From positions 56,450,283-56,514,282 of the forward strand of contig NC_083577.1 of the NCBI RefSeq assembly GCF_027579695.1: DNA of 64,000 bases, read 5' to 3'. The position numbers and the translations under genes are program-made. Shown here piece after piece: positions 11,408 through 55,790 of the stretch (positions within the stretch are counted from its first letter, which is position 1; the number at the start of each line of letters is the position of its first letter). The DNA is from Neoarius graeffei. Lineage: Eukaryota > Chordata > Actinopteri > Siluriformes > Ariidae. Under the pieces are notes generated by a model. The model was not told where the DNA came from. It made no database searches and saw only the letters and a program-made list of their open reading frames with translations.

Positions 11408-12295
11408 TCATGCCTTTGGGCAGCAACAGCAACACAGTCTTCTTAAAGGGTTCTTCTTCCTATATCTGGAAGCCATTTTGAATTTCTCATTAGAAGCCAT
11501 CACATAGTCCTGAGTCTTCTCTACATTGGCCTGGATATTGTCAATTTGCACTCCTTGCTCTTCCACAAGCATGAATACATCTAGAAAGAGTTCTCTCAGG
11601 TCCTTCATGTTGTTCTCAAGGGTGAGCAGTTCTTTGTGGCGCTGCTCTATCTCAGATAACTGTGTGCGAGTGATCTTGACATCCACCAGGATGTTCTCAT
11701 TGAAAACATCCCACTTACCCTGTTCCACCATGTTTTCCACTTCTTCTTCTGATACCTCTCGGCCAGAGATCTCTAGCTGCCTGATGATGAACTGCTTGCA
11801 TTTGTCTTGTTTGCTCAGGAGCGAGTCATTGTACTGACGCATGACCTCCTGGAACCGACAGAAGAGCACATCATGCTGGGCACGTTGGATCCGGGCTGTA
11901 GCAGCTGACGCCCCCAGTTCAGTCTCGGTACACTTTGCCTGCTTTGAGAGGGCATCGAGCTTCTTATGCAGGTTCTCAGCCTGCAGCTTGATGTCCCGAG
12001 TGCGACTGCTCTCTTTTTTCATGACGCTGAGGCGCCGCATGGTGGCCACAAAGTTTCTCTGCTGCTGACTGAACGTCTTAACCTCAGTTTCCAGCTCTTC
12101 AAGGCTATCACGAACACGCTTGGCCTCATCCAGGAAGTTCTCCAACACAGGCTCAGTCTCAAAGAGCACAGCTTGTGGCCAAAGTCCAATGAAGGACATT
12201 GGCTCTTCCTCCTCATGTTGGGTGAAGGAGTTACCTTCTTGAAGTTGCTGATTTGCTTTGATTTGCAGACGCAGCTCTTCTAAGCGATCCTTCAT
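11408..12295 (-). CDS. stx19: Syntaxin-19, cysteine-tailed Qa-SNARE
   Basis: A single coding exon of 295 residues starting MKDRLEELRLQIK. Syntaxin-19 and its sister syntaxin-11 are Qa-SNAREs without a membrane span; they are thought to attach to membranes by acylated cysteines and act in post-Golgi or plasma-membrane fusion. The Habc region covers roughly residues 45-165. The SNARE motif covers about 205-267, with the zero-layer glutamine at Q247 in EEQGVQID. The protein ends in five consecutive cysteines, C288-C292, then PKA, in place of a hydrophobic anchor. I call stx19 rather than stx11 because QAVLFETEPV, QQQRNFVATMRR, IKLQAE and SEIEQRHKEL match what I remember of STX19. Length is near the human protein (about 294). 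AG sites just upstream of the ATG could accept a 5' UTR intron. No defects are seen. Confidence 0.92.
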   Translation of the reverse strand: MKDRLEELRLQIKANQQLQEGNSFTQHEEEEPMSFIGLWPQAVLFETEPVLENFLDEAKRVRDSLEELETEVKTFSQQQRNFVATMRRLSVMKKESSRTRDIKLQAENLHKKLDALSKQAKCTETELGASAATARIQRAQHDVLFCRFQEVMRQYNDSLLSKQDKCKQFIIRQLEISGREVSEEEVENMVEQGKWDVFNENILVDVKITRTQLSEIEQRHKELLTLENNMKDLRELFLDVFMLVEEQGVQIDNIQANVEKTQDYVMASNEKFKMASRYRKKNPLRRLCCCCCPKA

Positions 12296-12578
12296 GACTA
12301 AAACTCAGACTAAGACCAGGGAGATAATAGATGGTGTTGGTGTTCTGTAATTATTAAAAGAAGAAATCAATGAAAAATATGTTCCTACTGACTTCATTTT
12401 CAGCATATATATGGTAGGGGTAAGCAAATATTCAGCTGTGTAAATACTGAAGGCCGGTTTCACACAAATTCATTGTACAACCTGTAGTCGAATGATACAA
12501 AATGGCTTGGGTTTTTGTTTGTTTCATATACAATAGCATAGGAGACATTTCTGCTGATAGAAAAAGATACTTTTCTAT

Positions 12579-20453: not shown

Positions 20454-23012
20454 ACACAGTGCCTTCACCACTTCAGGTCATTTAACAATCTAAAACAAGA
20501 TAATCCTAAACTTTAGGGCCATTCAGACAAACTGACATACATCAAAACACTGTCTTTGATTTATAAAGCACCAAAATAGTTTATACTCACAAAATATGTG
20601 ACTAAAGATGTTCATTAATCTGTACCATTAAACATAAAGTCACTTAAAAAAATTAATAATAACCTAAAGGATTTTTTTTCATTAAATGTTTTGGAAGTTT
20701 TACAGATGGAAGGCAAGTTTTCAGTGGAAAGATAAATGAATCTAAATTCTAGTTATATTTTTGTCTGTGTCTATTCCTTAACCTTTTAAGAAAAACATGT
20801 GAATCATTTCTTGTCTATCCTTTTTCATATATGCCAAGCCAGAGTTTCCCAACCAGGGGTTTGTGAATCCCGCAGTGTTCGTAATGGCATTATAGGGGTT
20901 CATAGAAATGTCAATGTGGCATTAGATTCAACTTTGAAAATAAATAGCTAGATGTTTACAAGTTAAAATTGTAATGCCAAAAAAGAAAAAATGGTTAAAA
21001 TGTTAATATATTTCCGAAACTGAAAATTGTGTAAACATACTGTTATTTGCCATTTATTACAAAGTTGCGCCTATTTAAAGTACTATGAACGTAAATCATT
21101 TGTGCTGAAGGGGTTCAGCTGATTAAAAAAATAAATTAATTTAAAAAAAAACCCAACCTTGTCAGCCCCTGTGCAGCCACTAGTACAGTGGTGCTTTGAA
21201 GTTTGTGAACCCTTTAAAATTTTCTATATTTCTGCATAAATATGACCTAAAACATCATCAGATGTTCACACAAGTCCTAAAAATAGACAAAGAGAACCCA
21301 GTTAAACAAATGAGACAAAAATATTATACTTGGTCATTTATTTATTGAGGAAAATGATCCAGTATTACATATCTGTGAGTGGCAAAAGTATGTGAACCTT
21401 TGCTTTCAGTATCTGGTGTGACCCCCTTGTGCAGCAATAACTGCAACTGAACGTTTCCGGTAACTGTTGATCAGTCCTGCACACCGGCTTGGAGGAATTT
21501 TAGCCCATTCCTCCATACAGAACAGCTTCAACTCTGGGATGTTGGTGGGTTTCCTCACATGAACTGCTCGCTTCAGGTCCTTCCACAAAATTTCGATTGG
21601 ATTAAAGTCACGACTTTGACTTGGCCATTCCAAAACATTAACTTTATTCTTCTTTAACCATTCTTTGGTAGAACGACTTGTGTGCTTAGGGTCGTTGTCT
21701 TGCTGCATGACCCACCTTCTCTTGAGATTCAGTTCATGGACAGATGTCCTGACATTTTCCTTTACAATTCGCTGGTAGAATTCAGAATTCATTGTTCCAT
21801 CGATGATGGCAAGCCGTCCTGGCCCAGATGCAGCAAAACAGGCCCAAACCATGATACTATCACCACCATGTTTCACAGATGGGATAAGGTTCTTATGCTG
21901 GAATGCAGCGTTTTCCTTTCTCCAAACATAACGCTTCTCATTTAAACCAAAAAGTTCTATTTTGGTCTCATCCATCCACAAAATATGTTTCCAATAGCCT
22001 ACTGGCTTGTCCACATGATCTTTAGCAAACTTTAGACGAGCAGCAATGTTCTTTTTGGAGAGCAGTGGCTTTCTCCTTGCAACCCTGCCATGCACACCAT
22101 TGTTGTTCAGTGTTCTCCTGATGGTGGACTCATGAACATTAACATTAGCCAATGTGAGAGAGGCCTTCAGTTGCTTAGAAGTTACCCTGGGGTCCTTTGC
22201 AACCTCGCTGACTATTACACGCCTTGCTCTTGGAGTGATCTTTGTTGGTCGACCACTCCTGGGGAGGGTAACAATGGTCTTGAATTTCCTCCATTTGTAC
22301 ACAATCTGTCTGACTGTGGATTGGTGGAGTCCAAACTCTTTAGAGATGGTTTTGTAACCTTTTCCAGCCTGATGAGCATCAACAATGCTTTTTCTGAGGT
22401 CCTCAGAAATCTCCTTTGTTCATGCCATGATACACTTCCACAAACATGTGTTGTGAAGATCAGACTTTGATAGATTCCTGTTCTTTAAATAAAACAGGGT
22501 GCCCACTCACACCTGATTGTCATCCCACTGACTGAAAACAGCTGACTCTAATTTCACCTTCAAATTAACTGCTAATCCTAGAGGTTCACATACTTTTGCC
22601 ACTCACAGATATGTAATATTGGATCATTTCCCTCAATAAATAAATGACCAAGTATAATATTTTTGTCTCATTTGTTTAACTGGGTTCTCTTTATCTACTT
22701 TTAGGACTTGTGTGAAAATCTGATGATGTTTTAGGTCATATGCAGAAATATAGAAAATTCTAAAGGGATCACAAACTTTCAAGCACCACTGTATGTGATT
22801 CAGTTCATAAACACCATGCACAGGGTTCACTGTCTGTCTTTTTTTTTTTTTACTTGCAGTGAATCCCGGAGTGTTTAGTAGTCTGTGTGAAATACCTGTC
22901 CAGATCTTTTGCCGTGTTCATACAGTCCCTGATAGATGTCTCCATTGGACAGCACTGCTCTCCCAGTACCATGCCTCTCTCCTTCTTCATTCCGATCACC
23001 TTCATACTCCTT

Positions 23013-24254: not shown

Positions 24255-26552
24255 ATGACTCTCAAATGGTTTTATTTTCTTATTCTGATCTGTTTCTTGG
24301 TTTTGTTAAGTTCCCAGAATATTGGTGGAAAGAGAGTTTGGCCTGTTCCTTACAGGTAAGATAAAAACATGAGCTCTCATTTATCAACTTCAGCCTGAGA
24401 GCTTCAGTGTCACTTCTGCATTTCTCTCTTCTGTTCCATTTCACTGTTTAATTAATGTTGTGCAGTATAGTAAACTGTTCACTATCAAGTAGATGGGTTT
24501 TTTAATGTTTATTTAATTATAATGTGTGAACACTCTGTCTTTTACATGTTTAATTATAATATGTACTCTCTGTCTTATGGCTACCACCATTCCGCTATTT
24601 TATGTCTTGAAGAGTGTTTCCAAAGGTGTGTAACACCCAGGCACTATTATTAAATGTGATGGAGTGCCTGTCACTACGGTTGAGTACGCGCTCTGACTGC
24701 CTGGCTCTTTGGTCAGGGTGCAGGTTTGGCACCCCGTAGACCTGGGTTCAAGGCTGGGTGGGGTGACTGCTCTCTCCCTTCGCTACGGTTGGTGTCAGAA
24801 GTGGGATGGCTTGCTGTGAGGCCATCAGAGGTGAGCCGTACAAGGGACCCCCAGGATAGGTGACCCCTGTGCGAGGGACCCCAGAGATGGGTGAAGCACA
24901 AGTGTGTGGGGCACACTGGCATGGGAGAAGTACAGCTGGGGGATGCGTGAGAGACGCCCATGTCCATGAAGCGCACGGGTGCACCTCCCAAAGGGGAGGG
25001 CAGTGTGACGGAGTGCCTGTCACTACGGCTGAGTATGTGCTCTGACTGCCATGCCAAAGAGCCTGGCTCTTTAGCGTTGTGGTCAGGGTGCAGGTTTGGC
25101 ACCTGTAGACCTGGGTTCAAGGCTGGGTGGGGTGACTGCTCTCTCCCTTCGCTACATTACAGTTATTGTTTTAATTTTTACTGAGTTATTTGCCTGTTAT
25201 TAGCTTGTGTTAACTAGTCACTTGAATCGAATGGATTTAATCCAGATCTTAATAACTCCAAAACAAATACACCTACAAATAACGTTAACTGGATTCTAAT
25301 GTGTTCAGAAAACAAACAACCTTCCTGGCTCCAGTAAATAGGATATTATTGTACACAATTAAATAATGAGCCTAATATTTTAACAATTGTGTTGATAAAA
25401 TTTAATTTGTTTTGCAAACCTTTGAGAACCCATGGTCGAGATTGTATTCCTGACAAACACACACTCACTCCCTCTCTCTCTCTCTGTCTGTGTAAATGAC
25501 TAGGCGATTCGACCATCGTCCTCCCACTGACCCTTACTGCCAAGCGCTTTACCCCTTTTGCCCAACTGGAGACCCGGATGGTCGTATCCCCTACATGAGA
25601 GACAGCGATGTCATTTCCGTGTTTAGACTTCAAACTCCTGTATGGGAATTCAAATATGGAGATCTTTTGGGGAAATTTGTAAGTTAATAACATAGTTGAA
25701 GTCTAAGGCTCCATTATGATGACTAGCATTAACAATGCATCTTCTGTTTCCAGCATATAATGCATGATGCCATTGGATTTGCCAGCTCAGAGACAGGAAG
25801 AAATTATACCATGGAATGGTATGAGCTTTTCCAGCTTGGAAACTGCACATTTCCCCATGAAAGAGAGGGGATAATGGCTCCTTTTTGGTGCAATCAGGGT
25901 GCCGCATGCTTCTTTGAGGGAATAGATGATGTGCACTGGAAACAGAATGGAACTCTGGAAAAAGTGGGAGAGATTTCTGGTAAGAAGTTGTGCACAAGTG
26001 TACAAATGGTTTGAGTACTCTTAATTTGATTCTGTGTTCAGTGCGTCACTGTTTCCTGTCATAGGTGAGCAGTTTAATGATCTGGCACAGTGGGTTCAAG
26101 AAGACAATGAGACGGGTATTTATTATGAGACGTGGACTATACGGTCAGACCCAGGACCCAACTCGACCACATGGTTCGACTCGTATGACTGTGCACAGTT
26201 TGTACACCGCACATACAGGAAATTAGCCGAGCTTGGAGCCAAGCTCTCAAGCAAAACTCAGACAAACTACACCAAAGTCTACCTGTACAGTGGTGAGCCT
26301 ACCTACCTTGGAGATGATAGCAGCATCTTTGATCAGTCCTCAATGAAAACTCTGGCCACAGATATCAGAAAGTTTTACCATTCTTTTCAGCCTCACCAGT
26401 CGATGCTTCATTTCATCCTCAGTCTGTTAGAAGCCTATAAAAAAGTAGTACTGGAGAAGACTTTTTATTTGTTCTACAACTTTGAGTATTGGCACTTGCC
26501 AATGAAACCACCCTACATCCAAATTACGTATGAAGAAGTTCCTCTGCCGTGA
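24255..26552 (+). CDS. cln5: Ceroid-lipofuscinosis neuronal protein 5, lysosomal BMP synthase
   Basis: Four coding exons, 24255-24355, 25504-25678, 25754-25979 and 26065-26552, join in phase to 329 residues. CLN5 is a soluble glycosylated lysosomal protein, reported to make bis(monoacylglycero)phosphate by transacylation and to have thioesterase activity; loss causes neuronal ceroid lipofuscinosis in humans. The start gives a signal peptide, [20 protein letters not shown]. The body is strongly CLN5-like: [121 protein letters not shown]. The His in HIMHDAIGF and Cys in DSYDCAQF match the human catalytic pair (H166/C280 in human numbering). Several N-glycosylation sites (NYT, NCT, NGT, NET, NST) remain. 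The N-terminus is shorter than the long human form. No defects seen. Intron 1 contains a TRIM fossil. Confidence 0.97.
24655..25155 (+). mobile_element. TRIM-type LTR retrotransposon fossil
   Basis: Two direct repeats of about 130-150 bases (24655-24786 and 25005-25155), starting TGTGA, enclose about 220 bases. A primer-binding-site-like TGGTGTCAGAAGTGGGAT follows the first repeat and a purine tract precedes the second. It has terminal repeats but no coding capacity, so it is a miniature, dependent relic. The repeats are still clearly alike, suggesting moderate age. It lies in cln5 intron 1. Confidence 0.6.
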
Positions 26553-37700: not shown

Positions 37701-39874
37701 CACAAATGTAGTAACCATTTCAAATTAGGAAGTGGAGTTTTACCTGCCGAACACAGACAAGCAGAGTGATCCACACAGTGAAGCGTCCCAGTGCTGTTGT
37801 ACTAAATAGCGGCACTGCTGGAACGCTGCTCAACCAATCAAATTAGTGGACCGGAATTAACTGGTGTATAAATCAAAATACAGATTTGAAGGACGGTGTA
37901 CTTTCTTTTCCCCCCCACGACTGTAGGCCAGAACTTGGTTTTCTAGTTAGAAACCAGTGTCATCCATACAGCTAATCCAAAATCTTTAAACAGATTGAAG
38001 TGAAAATAAGAATACCAGCAGGAGAGACATGGGGGCAGCTGCTCATTTTCAGCAGCTTGAGCGTGTCACTGTTATTGGCCACCAAGACCTTGAGTGATGG
38101 GTCATCAACAGGGGTATCGTCGATCTTGAGAGATGACAGAGATTTGGAGTTGACGAACACCACAGTCAGTGCAGAGATGAAGTGGGACTGGAAAGATTCA
38201 AAGACAAACCTTTACACATTTAGACAGAAAAGAAAAAAAAATGCCAAAAAACCTTCTATGAGGTTACTTCAGATGCTTAGGCCAAAAAAAAAAAAAAGTG
38301 TGTTTCCGGTAACCGAGAATTTCCGTGTCGAAATTGCCGACCGTAAAGTTTTTATTACAAATTTCCCTCGATATTTTAGTGTAAGCGGTGTTAGTTTGTC
38401 ATAATTTTTTGTTTCAACGCATTCAAGTTGTGAAAGAAACGATAAAAAGTAAAATGTTTTGCCACTTCTATCAGCCCTCCTGCATAAACATGGAAGCGCA
38501 CTTGTATACTGAAGGAGGAAGAGAAAACTGAGCCAAGCCGCCATTTTGAATCCTCATTCAAGGCTGTAATGCAAATGGCTTCCTCTTCAGTATACAAGTG
38601 CACTTCCATGGCAGGGGAAAAACACTACGTTGTGCCGCCTATGTAGTCCCCTATTTATACAAATAGGGGTCATTCAGGATTCAGCCATGTTTTTGCTCGG
38701 TGTTTTTGCTCGACCCAAGTTCTACAGTAGGCTAGGCCGTCTGCTTTTAATGGAAGTAGCCTAGGACGTTATTTTCACGTTATTTCTTGATAAGGTGTTT
38801 TCACGTTATTACATGAAAATATCATGAAAAAACGTGATAATTTCGTATCATGAAATTACGTGATGTTATTACATGATATATATATTGTAAAAACATGATA
38901 ACTTTGTTAACATCTTTTCATGTAATTACTTGATTCTAAGCCAATTTTTTTTGAGTGTGGCAGCAATACGCTTCCGTAGATCACAACTCGAACTCTCGCG
39001 ATATTTTTTTTATTCGTTTAAAGATTTAAAACACTTATTTTATTATGATGTGTGGTATAAAGGATTATGTGCCAAAATACTATTTTGTAAGATGTTGTGT
39101 TAATTTTTTCGAACAAAATAAAAAAAAAAAAATTAAGAAAAAAAAAAAACTTTTTCCTACCTACCGACCTTATTTTAGTATTTCATGTTACCGGAAACAC
39201 ACTTTTTTTTTTTTTTGGCCTTACCTTTGTTAACTCCATAAAGCTTGGGCGTGCTGTGGAAATGAGTCCGAGGGTCTTTATCGAGCAGTTTACAAGTTGA
39301 GACAGGATGTTGCAGGCTGCCTCTGCTGATTCTGTACTGCTGTCCACCTGCATGCACATTTTGTACAATGTTAAACAGTGCAAAGCCTAAACAATACCCA
39401 GACATTACATCTGGAAATTTCTTGGTAATTTACTTATTCCTGTATGCCTACTAGTAGAAAAAAGAAAAAAAAAAATCAACCACAATACAACACACATCTA
39501 AGCATTCTCCTCACCTTAAAACTGACATACTGTAAATGATTAGAGTGCTTCTTGATGATCTGCTTGATGAGATCAGGATGTGTGGCCTTCAGGTAGGAGC
39601 TTGCAGGTTGGTTGAGTTCAAACTCGAAGCATCTCCAAAGCTCAGGCATGTGAAAAGCTTCGTTCCAACCACGGCACACCTGAGAGGCAAAGGCTCGATC
39701 CAACAAGGGCAAGTACTGAAAGACACGCAGTAGGATCTCCTGTGGTAACCACGCCCAGGTGGACACCACATCTCCACAGTCCTCGCTGGGACGCCTAACT
39801 TTCTTGCAAACCTCCATTCTCTCCTCACAGGACGAGCCGCTAGCCTCTTTGTGTCGGATTAATCTTCTTTTCAT
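31745..39874 (-). CDS. fbxl3: F-box/LRR protein 3, cryptochrome ubiquitin-ligase receptor
   Basis: Four coding exons on the minus strand, 39515-39874, 39225-39347, 38016-38187 and 31745-32385, join in phase to 431 residues (human FBXL3 has 428). FBXL3 is the substrate receptor of an SCF ligase that ubiquitylates CRY1/CRY2 in the nucleus and sets circadian period. The F-box is at about residues 33-80 ([20 protein letters not shown], then [12 protein letters not shown]). Leucine-rich repeats fill the rest ([91 protein letters not shown]). The C-terminus PDMMPTW keeps the tryptophan that in mammals enters the cryptochrome FAD pocket. I start at MKRRLIRHK because CATTTTCAAG just before it looks like a 5' UTR acceptor. 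Intron 3 (5.6 kb) and intron 2 are full of transposons, one of which ends five bases from the exon 2 donor. Tail to tail with cln5. Confidence 0.97.
32709..32926 (+). pseudogene. Orphan P2RX7-intracellular-domain-like first exon
   Basis: Plus-strand frame [14 protein letters not shown], then [13 protein letters not shown] and an acidic serine/aspartate tail, ending at a possible donor (CTG before GTAGTTATG). The YxxxPYxxEP pattern resembles the N-terminus of the fish multigene family annotated as P2X7-like because it shares the P2X7 cytosolic domain. No cysteine-rich continuation is found downstream, so it is an isolated exon, inside fbxl3 intron 3 and antisense to it. Recognition is from memory. 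Confidence 0.45.
33255..33520. repeat. Minisatellite derived from THAP coding sequence
   Basis: Four to five imperfect units of about 48-66 bases. Each contains AATCCACTCTCTCC-like or CCACTCGCTC-like sequence and GGAAAAAGCCAACCC. The units repeat the part of the THAP exon encoding [12 protein letters not shown]. Confidence 0.75.
33470..33576 (-). pseudogene. THAP zinc-finger N-terminal exon, disrupted
   Basis: Frame [20 protein letters not shown], then [12 protein letters not shown], matches the start of THAP C2CH fingers (M-x2-C-x4-C, then F-P, then W). The sequence after W is a minisatellite made from its own coding units, so the finger is never completed. THAP domains occur in cellular genes and in P and Kolobok transposons. 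Confidence 0.6.
33577..34523. other. fbxl3 intron 3, unassigned part
   Basis: No gene or bounded transposon is supported in this stretch. A and T runs are common. Confidence 0.4.
34527..35052 (+). mobile_element. PIF/Harbinger-type element with MADF remnant
   Basis: Left end TTA then AGGCCAATTTATACTGACAA; right end CATGCAGAGGCCT then TTA (35053-35055). The interior has repeated GCAGA-rich, GC-rich subterminal blocks. The plus strand near 34785-34870 encodes [20 protein letters not shown], the start of a MADF (Myb/SANT-like) domain, the DNA-binding accessory protein of Harbinger elements. Only this first piece is left. Confidence 0.7.
35085..35848 (-). mobile_element. hAT-like element, short copy of the 40394 family
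   Basis: The left end CAGGCCTCAACAATAACTTT and right end (inverse CTGAGGGCTTGACGTAAC) match the ends of the element at 40394-44302. The interior 35330-35750 matches 43200-43570 in reverse. It is an internally deleted, non-coding relative. The flanks rejoin as GAAGTGACTCAAATC; only GTG is visibly repeated. Confidence 0.65.
35891..36032 (-). mobile_element. 5'-truncated Mermaid-type SINE with target duplication
   Basis: Minus-strand 3' part only, from the CTCATT-type tail to the ACACATAGACACAG region. TGACAAAGATCT is duplicated exactly at 35879-35890 and 36033-36044, so truncation happened at insertion. Confidence 0.92.
36723..37599. mobile_element. hAT-type MITE in fbxl3 intron 3
   Basis: Ends TAGATCCCAAAGCCG and the inverse of CGGCTTCGGGGTCTA. 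The 8-base duplication ATCCAGAG is exact at 36715-36722 and 37600-37607. Subterminal GGCTGGC/GGCGGC repeats are present. It split an older dispersed repeat (CAGACGCGCTTATCCAGAG joined to CGACGTGCAACTAG). Confidence 0.88.
37600..38015. other. fbxl3 intron 3, right part
   Basis: Remainder of the split repeat up to about 37650, then unassigned intron sequence to the exon 3 donor. Confidence 0.4.
38280..39220. mobile_element. MITE with TTA duplication abutting fbxl3 exon 2 donor
   Basis: Ends GGCC followed by an A run and GTGTGTTTCCGGTAAC, and the inverse copy at the right. TTA duplicated at 38277-38279 and 39221-39223. Inside are an inverted pair containing CTTGTATACTGAAG near 38490-38610 and ATGATAT/CATGAA palindromes near 38780-38930. 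The right end lies in the fbxl3 intron 2 donor. TSD and size suggest PIF/Harbinger-like, but no protein is present. Confidence 0.82.
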
Positions 39875-44639: not shown

Positions 44640-45694
44640 CCCCTTTTCTCTTTACAACAGTCTGTAAACGTCTGGGGACTGAGGAGACAAGTTGCTCAAG
44701 TTTAGGGATAGGAATGTTAACCCATTCTTGTCTAATGTAGGATTCTAGTTGCTCAACTGTCAGGTCTTTTCTGTCGTATCTTCCGTTTTATGATGCGCCA
44801 AATGTTTTCTATGGGTGAAAGATCTGGACTGCAGGCTGGCCAGTTCAGTACCCGGACCCTTCTTCTACGCAGCCATGATGCTGTAATTGATGCAGTATGT
44901 GGTTTGGCATTGTCATGTTGGAAAATGCAAGGTCTTCCCTGAAAGAGACGTCGTCTGGATGGGAGCATATGTTGCTCTAGAACCTGGATATACCTTTCAG
45001 CATTGATGGGGTCTTTCCAGATGTGTAAGCTGCCCATGCCACACACACTAATGCAACCCCATACCATCAGAGATGCAGGCTTCTGAACTGAGCGCTGATA
45101 ACAACTTGGGTCGTCCTTCTCCTCTTTAGTCCGAATGACACGGCGTCCCTGATTTCCATAAAGAACTTCAAATTTTGATTCGTCTGACCACAGAACAGTT
45201 TTCCACTTTGCTACAGTCCATTTTAAATGAGCCTTGCCCCAGAGAAGACGTCTGCGCTTCTGGATCATGTTTAGATACGGCTTCTTTTTTGAACTATAGG
45301 GTTTTAGCTGGCAACGGCGGATGGCACAGTGAATTGTGTTCACAGATAATGTTCTCTGGAAATATTCCTGAGCCCATTTTGTGATTTCCAATACAGAAGC
45401 ATGCCTGTATGTGATGCAGTGCCGTCTAAGGGCCCGAATTTCACGGGCACCCAGTATGGTTTTCCGGCCTTGACCCTTGCGCACAGAGATTCTTCCAGAT
45501 TCTCTGAATCTTTTGATGATATTCTGCACTGTAGATGATATGTTCAAACTCTTTGCAATTTTACACTGTCGAACTCCTTTCTGATATTGCTCCACTATTT
45601 GTCGGTGCAGAATTAGGGGGATTGGTGATCCTCTTCCCATCTTTACTTCTGAGAGCTGCTGCCACTCCAAGATGCTCTTTTTATACCCAGTCAT
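44640..45694 (-). pseudogene. Tc1 transposase with C-terminal frameshift
   Basis: A 313-residue open frame (44753-45694) starts [20 protein letters not shown]; the usual start may be the MGRGSPIPL methionine. HTH region: [22 protein letters not shown]34E residues: D in WSDESKFE, D in [10 protein letters not shown] in [13 protein letters not shown]. The frame ends at KRPDS, but another frame continues [12 protein letters not shown] and VPRRLQTVVKRKGDVSQW, so a frameshift removed the last 40-50 residues. Otherwise nearly intact, so fairly young. Confidence 0.9.
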
Positions 45695-45778
45695 GTTAAT
45701 GACCTATTGCCAATTGACCTAATGAGTTGCAATTTGGTCCTCCAGCTGTTCCTTTTTTGTACCTTTAACTTTTCCAGC

Positions 45779-52042: not shown

Positions 52043-53155
52043 GGGTGTATTCAGACCAGGATAGTTCACTTGATTTGGTCCGAACCAAATGTTTTTTTTA
52101 TTTTTTCATTTTGGTGCGGTTCGCTTTCACACTGTACATTTTAGTAAGCGGACCAAAACCTGTCAACAAAGCCACGCGCCCTGAGGTCGTTCAGCTATTG
52201 GTCAGAGACGACACGCGCACAAAGCGTTAAGTTCAAAAGTAGTCATGGAGGCTTTCCGTGCTGTTATTCTTTTTAATGTCATCAAAGCTATATGTTTTTT
52301 CCAGTTTTTACTGTTTTCACAATTGTGCGATTACTATGCTGTTGTACAAGTAATTTATCAACGACGACGACAAAGGGCAAGGCGGCTACGGAGGATAGCG
52401 CTGATGAGCGCACATCATGTTGTGACAGTTCTGGCTCTTCACGCAAGACGGAGGAGGTATGTGTCGGGATATTCACCTTATCCATCGTAATAGATGAATT
52501 TCTTTTTTGCGTCGCTAGTACTGCCACTTTTTGAAAGAATGTCCCTGATTTTAATGTAGGTCTGACGGAGTTTCTTCACTTTTAGCCGACATTGTTCTGG
52601 GGAGCGCGTGAACCCCTTCTCCTTCATTTTCTCACTGAATACAGCAAACACGTCGGCATTTTTGTGTGTTCTCTCCAAAAGCTCAGATATGTGGACATCT
52701 GCCCATATATCCACAAGGGTACGCGTTTCTTCCTCGGCCCACGTTTGCCCCCTACTCATTTTTTGTACTCTGTAGTCTAGCCTACCACTGGTCTGAATGA
52801 CTGAACGACTGTTGTAAGGTTCCCTTGACAACCGAAACAGTGTTTGCACTTTGTGGTGGAGTGTCAAGACTCTGTTTCCCATAATGCTCGACAAACGACG
52901 GAAGCTCCCGAGGTACAAAAAAAGCAAAACTGTCAGATTAGGTCCGGTCTGCTTTCACACCTCCAAAAGGTCCGCACCAGGGTTCCTTTGGTCCGGACCG
53001 AGTCCGACCTTGCAGCTCAGTCTCGGTCCGCTTGTTTGGTCCGGACCAGAGTTCGGTGGTTTGTATTCAGACCAACCCAAAAGGTCCAGACCAAGGGAAA
53101 TTTGGTTCGTTTGGTTGTTTGGTCCGGACCAAACAACGTAGGTGTGAATACGCCC
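52043..53155 (-). mobile_element. PIF/Harbinger element, third layer, Myb/SANT gene only
   Basis: Ends GGGTGTATTCAGACC and the inverse GGGCGTATTCACACC, with TAA at 52040-52042 and 53156-53158. Subterminal GGTCCGGACCAA motifs recur many times at both ends, especially 52940-53130. Only the DNA-binding accessory gene is left (52478-52759); the DDE transposase is absent. Confidence 0.9.
52478..52759 (-). CDS. Harbinger Myb/SANT-like DNA-binding protein, partial
   Basis: From the methionine of MSRGQTWAEEETRTLVDIWA the frame runs about 93 residues: W-x-EEE-TRTLVDIW helix, then HKNADVFAVFSEKMKEKG and RSPEQCRLKVKKLRQTY, ending KKKFIYYDG. This is the Myb/SANT trihelix of Harbinger accessory proteins and of ZSCAN29-like genes, which in autonomous elements brings the transposase to the DNA. 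An upstream in-frame extension exists but does not look conserved. Another open frame (52288-52527) overlaps its end in a different phase, so the C-terminal part may be frameshifted or spliced. Well preserved, so possibly still expressed. Confidence 0.75.
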   Translation of the reverse strand: MSRGQTWAEEETRTLVDIWADVHISELLERTHKNADVFAVFSEKMKEKGFTRSPEQCRLKVKKLRQTYIKIRDILSKSGSTSDAKKKFIYYDG

Positions 53156-54672: not shown

Positions 54673-55790
54673 GGGACTCCCTAAAGTGAATGACGCATGA
54701 AATGATGCTGGCCTGAGATGCTGGCCTCTTCTGCCCCTCGGACCTGCTTGATCCATCCTGGTGCCCTGTGTCTGGTCGGAGTTTTATCGCCCCACTCCTG
54801 TGAAGGATGGCCCCATGAGGACAGTTGAGGGTTATACCTGTTAAAACTGTTAATATTATAGTCAGGCTGTCTGTTGTTGCCCAAATGAGGATGGGTTCCC
54901 TTTTGAGTCTGGTTCCTCTCGAGGTTTCTTCCTCATGTCGTCTGAGGGAGTTTTTCCTTGCCACCGTCGCCACAGGCTTGCTCATTGGGGATAGATTAGG
55001 GATAAAATTAGCTCATGTTTTAAGTCATTCAAATTCTGTAAAGCTGCTTTGCGACAATGTTTATTGTTAAAAGCGCTGTACAAATAAACTTGATTTGATT
55101 TGATTTGAAATGGAATGACAGCTAGTGATTTGAACAATAAATGGTCCCTTGTCATTCAGATTCTTATAAATGGAATAACGATTGAAATGTAGGTGGAATG
55201 ACATGCTTTCACCTCATGAAATGGAATGACATTGTTTCTAAGTGGAATGACATACTTTTAGGTTATGTTATCAGTGATATCACCTTTTACAAATGGAATG
55301 ACAGCGTTTCCAGGTGGAATGACATACTTTAAGCTAATGTTATCAGTGATATCCCCTTTTACAAATGGAATGACAGTGTTTTTAGGTGGAATGACATACT
55401 TTGAGGCAATGTTATCAGTGATATCACCTATAACCTAACCCTAACCCTAGAAACAATGTCATTCCATTTGTTAATTTGATATCACTGATAACATTGCTTC
55501 AAAGTATGTCATTCCACCTAGAAACCTCATCATTCCATTTGTAAAAGGTGATATCACTGACAACGTTAGCTCAAAGTAAGTCAATACATATAGAAACCCT
55601 GTCATTCCATTTGTAAAAGCTGATATCCCACCAAGCACCCACTTATCTTATCCTAGGGAGGTCTAAAACTAAAGATTTCAATCGTTATTCCATTTGTAAG
55701 AATCTGAATGACAAGGGACCATTTATTGTTCAAATTTACTACCTGTCATTCGTCATTCCATTTCATGAGTCATTCACTTTAGGGAGTCCT
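54673..55790. mobile_element. Foldback element with internal tandem repeats
   Basis: Ends GGGACTCCCTAAAGTG and inverse AGGACTCCCTAAAGTG. The exact 8-base duplication CAGCTCCC is at 54665-54672 and 55791-55798. Almost the whole element (leaving out a nested LINE tail) is two inverted arms of about 330 bases. Each arm is built of imperfect units of about 85-90 bases with repeated GGAATGAC and GTTATCAGTGATATC. The centre holds CCTAACCCTAACCCTA. No protein. hAT- or Mutator-type by duplication length. Confidence 0.85.
54706..55106 (+). mobile_element. LINE 3' end (L2-like) inside the foldback left arm
   Basis: About 400 bases ending GCTGTACAAATAAACTTGAT and TGATT repeats, homologous to 47325-47572. 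It splits the left arm; TGAAATG appears on both sides as a likely target duplication. Confidence 0.7.

Follow-up and report, generated by a model that had tools for sequence, protein, structure and literature searches.

The fbxl3 locus of Neoarius graeffei raises a simple question. An inverted-repeat element sits inside the splice donor of the second intron, and the donor looks intact. Is this a lucky escape for a conserved gene, or is it what transposons of this kind would be expected to do? We believe the second answer is the better one. Our whole account, in which a Harbinger-like element inserted into the TAA of the fbxl3 donor and the donor was rebuilt by the target duplication together with the element's own G, is in our opinion very probably right.

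Throughout, the window means the whole stretch of 64,000 nucleotides analysed. fbxl3 is a clock gene, and the window holds its complete coding sequence on the minus strand, intact and in frame, as four exons encoding 431 amino acids.

39874-39515, minus strand: fbxl3 coding exon 1, from the spliced coding sequence
39225-39347, minus strand: fbxl3 coding exon 2, ending ...ACA AAG in phase 0, with the spliced coding sequence open
38016-38187, minus strand: fbxl3 coding exon 3, from the spliced coding sequence and the match to FBXL3
32385-31745, minus strand: fbxl3 coding exon 4, from the spliced coding sequence

The top of nine matches to solved structures is FBXL3 itself (4i6j_B, E 1e-244, residues 14-431), and Pfam finds F-box families in the product. 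In vertebrates cln5 adjoins fbxl3, and a CLN5 match lies on the plus strand of the window at 26025-26549 (PF15014, E 3.4e-89). As a separate observation, the donor of exon 3 (38016) reads CTG/GTATTC, with weak predicted U1 pairing (-4.2), and the intron after it is about 5.6 kb long.

The features that matter for the insertion are as follows.

38280-39220, no strand assigned: putative non-autonomous PIF/Harbinger-like element, 941 bp, with inverted ends and TTA on both flanks
39221-39223, minus strand: exon-proximal target duplication, TTA on the plus strand and TAA on the minus, donor positions +2 to +4
38277-38279, minus strand: acceptor-side target duplication, TTA on the plus strand
39216-39228, minus strand: present donor AAAG/GTAAGGCCA, whose +5 G (39220) is the element's first base
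38188-38276, minus strand: remainder of the original intron 2, 89 nt, ending ...TCTTTCCAG

The ends of the element, the duplication that flanks it and the donor that results can all be read directly from the DNA. The inverted ends (38280-38313 and 39187-39220) are identical at 34 of 34 bases and first differ at base 35. Both termini read GGCC(A14)GTGTGTTTCCGGTAAC, in inverted orientation, and each borders directly on TTA; GATGC flanks the acceptor-side TTA outside the element. The equal runs of 14 A at the two ends suggest that this may be a young copy. Its G+C content is 34.2%, against 40.1% for the window. Inside it are AT-rich palindromes and a hairpin with arms of 33 bp (38489-38521 and about 38579-38610) that are 94% alike; this nested and near-perfect structure, 38489-38610, might be a small element in its own right or a palindromic core. 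Eleven open reading frames of at least 30 amino acids overlap the element, the longest wholly internal one having 72. Six of the eleven were scanned against Pfam, and among those six no family was found and no transposase identified. A blastn search found no second copy in the window, and repeat scans of the window, TRF among them, returned mainly A/T runs.

On the minus strand the junction reads ...GAGTTAACAAAG, then GTAA, then GGCCAAAA..., with the exon ending at 39225, the intron starting at 39224, TAA at 39223-39221 and the element starting at 39220. The first-pass annotation of this DNA had described an exon 2 ending in AAG, followed by GTAA and an element beginning GGCC, and these coordinates bear it out. 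They also confirm its claim that the target duplication lies within the donor. It had placed the insertion five bases into the intron, which is correct in putting it inside the donor, but only four intron bases precede the element. Joining the flanks and keeping one TTA gives an empty site with the donor AAAG/GTAAGCATC and an intron of 93 nt that has GT...AG ends and finishes in TTTCCAG. The present intron has 1037 nt, and there the exon end AAAG is followed by GTAAGGCC. The donor strings proposed earlier for the original and present sites are thus both right. The two donors are identical from -3 to +5; the A at +7 and the T at +8 of the empty donor, both of which fit U1, are lost in the occupied one.

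The mechanism we propose is short. A non-autonomous PIF/Harbinger-like transposon would have inserted at the TAA of a GTAAG donor in fbxl3 intron 2. Staggered cutting would have duplicated the TAA/TTA and left GTAA joined to exon 2, with the element's first base, a G, standing in for the original +5 G. The transcript should then still be spliced between the original donor and acceptor, with the whole element removed inside the 1037-nt intron. We infer both this normal splicing and the direction of the event, an insertion and not a loss. Predicted U1 duplex energies, calculated with the 5' end of U1, are -10.0 kcal/mol for the occupied donor and -9.5 for the empty one. This agrees with the earlier statement that the initial G of the element restored the +5 G and kept the donor consensus, as does the identity from -3 to +5. 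The terminal G does matter, because putting A, C or T in its place in test donors weakens the predicted pairing with U1 (-6.8, -6.5 and -6.6). Precise excision of the element would be expected to regenerate GTAAGCATC; the available part of PMC2836001 describes PIF/Harbinger excision as usually precise, with 109 of 110 events for mPing in yeast.

The first-pass annotation called all this a rare near-miss, which the evidence does not support. The target triplet lies within the GTAAG consensus, both ends of the element start with G, and the donor is one of the four TAA sites in the empty intron (positions 2, 15, 59 and 67; there are no TTA sites). Insertion directed to TWA in the empty intron would therefore have a chance of 1 in 4 of hitting the donor if all sites are equal. 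A random insertion in the window is unlikely to land there, since the donor is one of 2781 TTA/TAA sites. Because both ends begin with G, the +5 G is restored whichever way round the element inserts. We considered the restored G as a lucky coincidence and rejected the idea, because it follows from the end base of the element. The same result is to be expected at any GTAA donor that such elements enter, since GTAAG contains the target and the ends begin with G. To us the insertion looks like an expected by-product of the target choice of these transposons and not a remarkable coincidence. It is nevertheless a single case picked after the fact, so it can show neither enrichment nor rarity.

The argument depends on what kind of element this is. 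No transposase was identified in the six reading frames scanned and blastn found no second copy in the window, so the assignment to a superfamily rests on the duplication and the end bases. According to the available text of PMC12595863, TWA is the target of Tourist MITEs, which are mobilised by PIF/Harbinger transposases, and that of PMC2836001 gives mPing a 3-bp TTA/TAA duplication. The TTA copies at 38277-38279 and 39221-39223 agree with this. The same portion of PMC2836001 reports a 9-bp extended insertion preference for PIF and mPing, and a Myb-like domain in ORF1 of PIF/Harbinger.

We scanned the window for inverted ends of 14 bp flanked by TTA/TAA, with the first 3 bases exact, at most 2 mismatches and 60-2500 bp between them. 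Five pairs were found, against 0, 0, 0, 1, 0, 0, 0, 0, 0 and 0 in ten Markov-resampled windows. They are the fbxl3 element, a pair inside it (38809-38925), the pair at 52043-53155, and two pairs that run from 55290 and 55362 to a common right end at 55470. Harbinger termini are generally described as beginning with G. GGCC stands at both ends of the fbxl3 element, and within the window only this element and the one at 52043-53155 show an initial G; the other three of the five pairs do not.

52043-53155: second element flanked on either side by TAA, 1113 bp long, with ends GGGTGTATTCAGAC and GGGCGTATTCACAC, beginning GGG (GGGT, GGGC)

It has an open stretch of 158 amino acids (52481-52954, minus strand) with a Myb/SANT-like domain (PF13837, E 4.4e-18), and is likely a Harbinger relative that has retained ORF1. 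Nearby, 55290-55470 has TTA-flanked inverted ends CAAATGGAATGACA and two possible left ends (55290, 55362), and could be a small repeat in tandem or nested form.

Three other explanations have to be weighed. The fbxl3 element might belong to another inverted-repeat superfamily, its TTA being a chance match or an untypical duplication. That no transposase was identified in the scanned frames, and no second copy in the window, would allow this, and one shared triplet is weak evidence, expected about 1 time in 64 at equal base use. However, the inverted ends match perfectly as far as the TTA on either side, and the part of PMC12595863 available names TWA as the target of the Tourist and PIF/Harbinger group, so we think this quite improbable. 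It is still less probable, indeed hardly credible, that the element is an assembly artefact or a heterozygous allele that most individuals do without. We have a single assembly, and runs of 14 A in both ends would be expected to be error-prone, but a clean duplication with matching ends is the signature of a true insertion.

The most serious of the three, which we still regard as unlikely, is fully compatible with the insertion itself. It accepts the insertion but takes it to be harmful or regulatory: splice-like sites inside the element, or a hairpin at the donor, would send part of the transcripts to an early stop and so reduce FBXL3. The two sites in question are as follows.

39157-39167, minus strand: donor-like site TCG/GTAGGTAG, intron start 39164, predicted U1 duplex -10.6 kcal/mol
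38509-38531, minus strand: acceptor-like site TCAGTTTTCTCTTCCTCCTTCAG, giving an exon start at 38508 if used, with 18 pyrimidines among the 20 bases before CAG

Of the 53 GT sites in the sense intron for which U1 pairing was predicted, the one at 39164 pairs best and the real donor comes second; two sites that overlap it reach -9.1 and -8.1. It lies 60 nt downstream of the real donor, and its use would extend exon 2 by 60 nt and bring in an in-frame stop after 13 residues. The acceptor-like site is also richer in pyrimidines than the true acceptor, which has 14 of 20. Against this, the duplex energies were calculated with the register free to vary and ignore the wider splicing context, and the 39164 site has no A at -2 or +4. 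It shares 7 of 11 bases with the donor consensus, exactly as the real donor does. Splice-like sites are common within introns, and fbxl3 is intact and conserved.

Folding bears on the same question. In the full-length fold of the occupied stretch (1157 nt) the ends of the element pair with each other and take up donor positions +4 to +6 (unpaired probability 0.06, 0.00 and 0.00), whereas +4 and +5 are largely free in the empty intron (at least 0.88 and at least 0.84). Positions -1 and +1 are freer in the occupied full-length fold than in the empty intron. The mean over -3 to +6 is 0.43 for the 1157-nt occupied fold and 0.58 for the 213-nt empty one. If bases may pair only within 100 or 200 nt, the mean is 0.56 or 0.48 for the occupied donor and 0.59 or 0.58 for the empty one; at these spans +4 (0.95-0.96) and +5 (0.74) of the occupied donor are mostly free but +6 is not (0.35, 0.10). 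The end-to-end hairpin would, on the folding model, bring the donor near the acceptor, and this could even help splicing.

Returning to a donor rebuilt by a Harbinger-like insertion, we can compare it with systems already described. The fbxl3 element resembles the non-autonomous, Tourist-like MITEs of the PIF/Harbinger superfamily in its TTA/TAA duplication, its perfect inverted ends, its position in a gene and in that no transposase was identified among the frames scanned. It differs from them in length, since MITEs are usually shorter than its 941 bp. No further family member and no autonomous partner was seen in the window. The first-pass label of MITE was right about an inverted-repeat element, but non-autonomous Harbinger-like element is the safer term. 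Elements that add or disrupt splice sites are known from maize Ac/Ds, and a study in mulberry reportedly deals with MITEs and alternative splicing. As with the MITEs in the available part of PMC12595863, by which splice sites are gained or disrupted, the sequence of our element is part of a splice site or lies against it; unlike those, it is predicted to keep the donor and not to make or break one. Introners, DNA transposons that create new introns when they insert into coding sequence, share with it, as far as the accessible text of PMC9860276 describes them, a splice signal that is split between target duplication and element. However, the fbxl3 intron existed already, and the insertion has made it longer and done no more than rebuild its donor. 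We tried Introner identity and rejected it, since a 93-nt GT-AG intron remains when the element and one TTA are taken away. A word search of the literature (titles and abstract openings) returned no Harbinger insertion in a splice donor and no fbxl3 transposon, which does not imply their absence from print.

We would file the case as a real and tidy insertion of an ordinary Harbinger-like kind, in which restoration of the donor follows from the target and the end bases. It clearly illustrates how a transposon can sit inside the splice donor of a conserved gene with -3 to +5 unchanged. The interesting part is the general rule it suggests, a proposal made from one case: that target choice and terminal base predict which transposon families survive at donors. 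Harbinger-type elements might be intrinsically safe for splice donors, because TAA plus a terminal G regenerates GTAAG either way, so that GTAA(G) donors would form a tolerated niche at exon edges. We put this forward tentatively and would not be surprised to see it fail. If it is true, insertions starting at +5 should be over-represented among surviving Harbinger insertions near exons compared with those of Tc1 or hAT, a count that any annotated genome with many such elements would allow.

The window holds transposon sequences of other kinds as well. A stop-free stretch of 337 amino acids at 21409-22419, minus strand, has domains of a Tc1/Sleeping Beauty-type transposase (HTH_SB, HTH_Tnp_Tc3_2, DDE_3) and is possibly a recent copy. 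Another Tc1-like transposase lies at 44756-45703, minus strand, a stop-free stretch of 316 amino acids with matches to DDE_3 and a paired-type domain. At 11411-12304, also on the minus strand, a stop-free stretch of 298 amino acids matches Syntaxin (E 1.8e-44) and families of SNARE proteins, forming an unbroken piece of syntaxin-like coding sequence.
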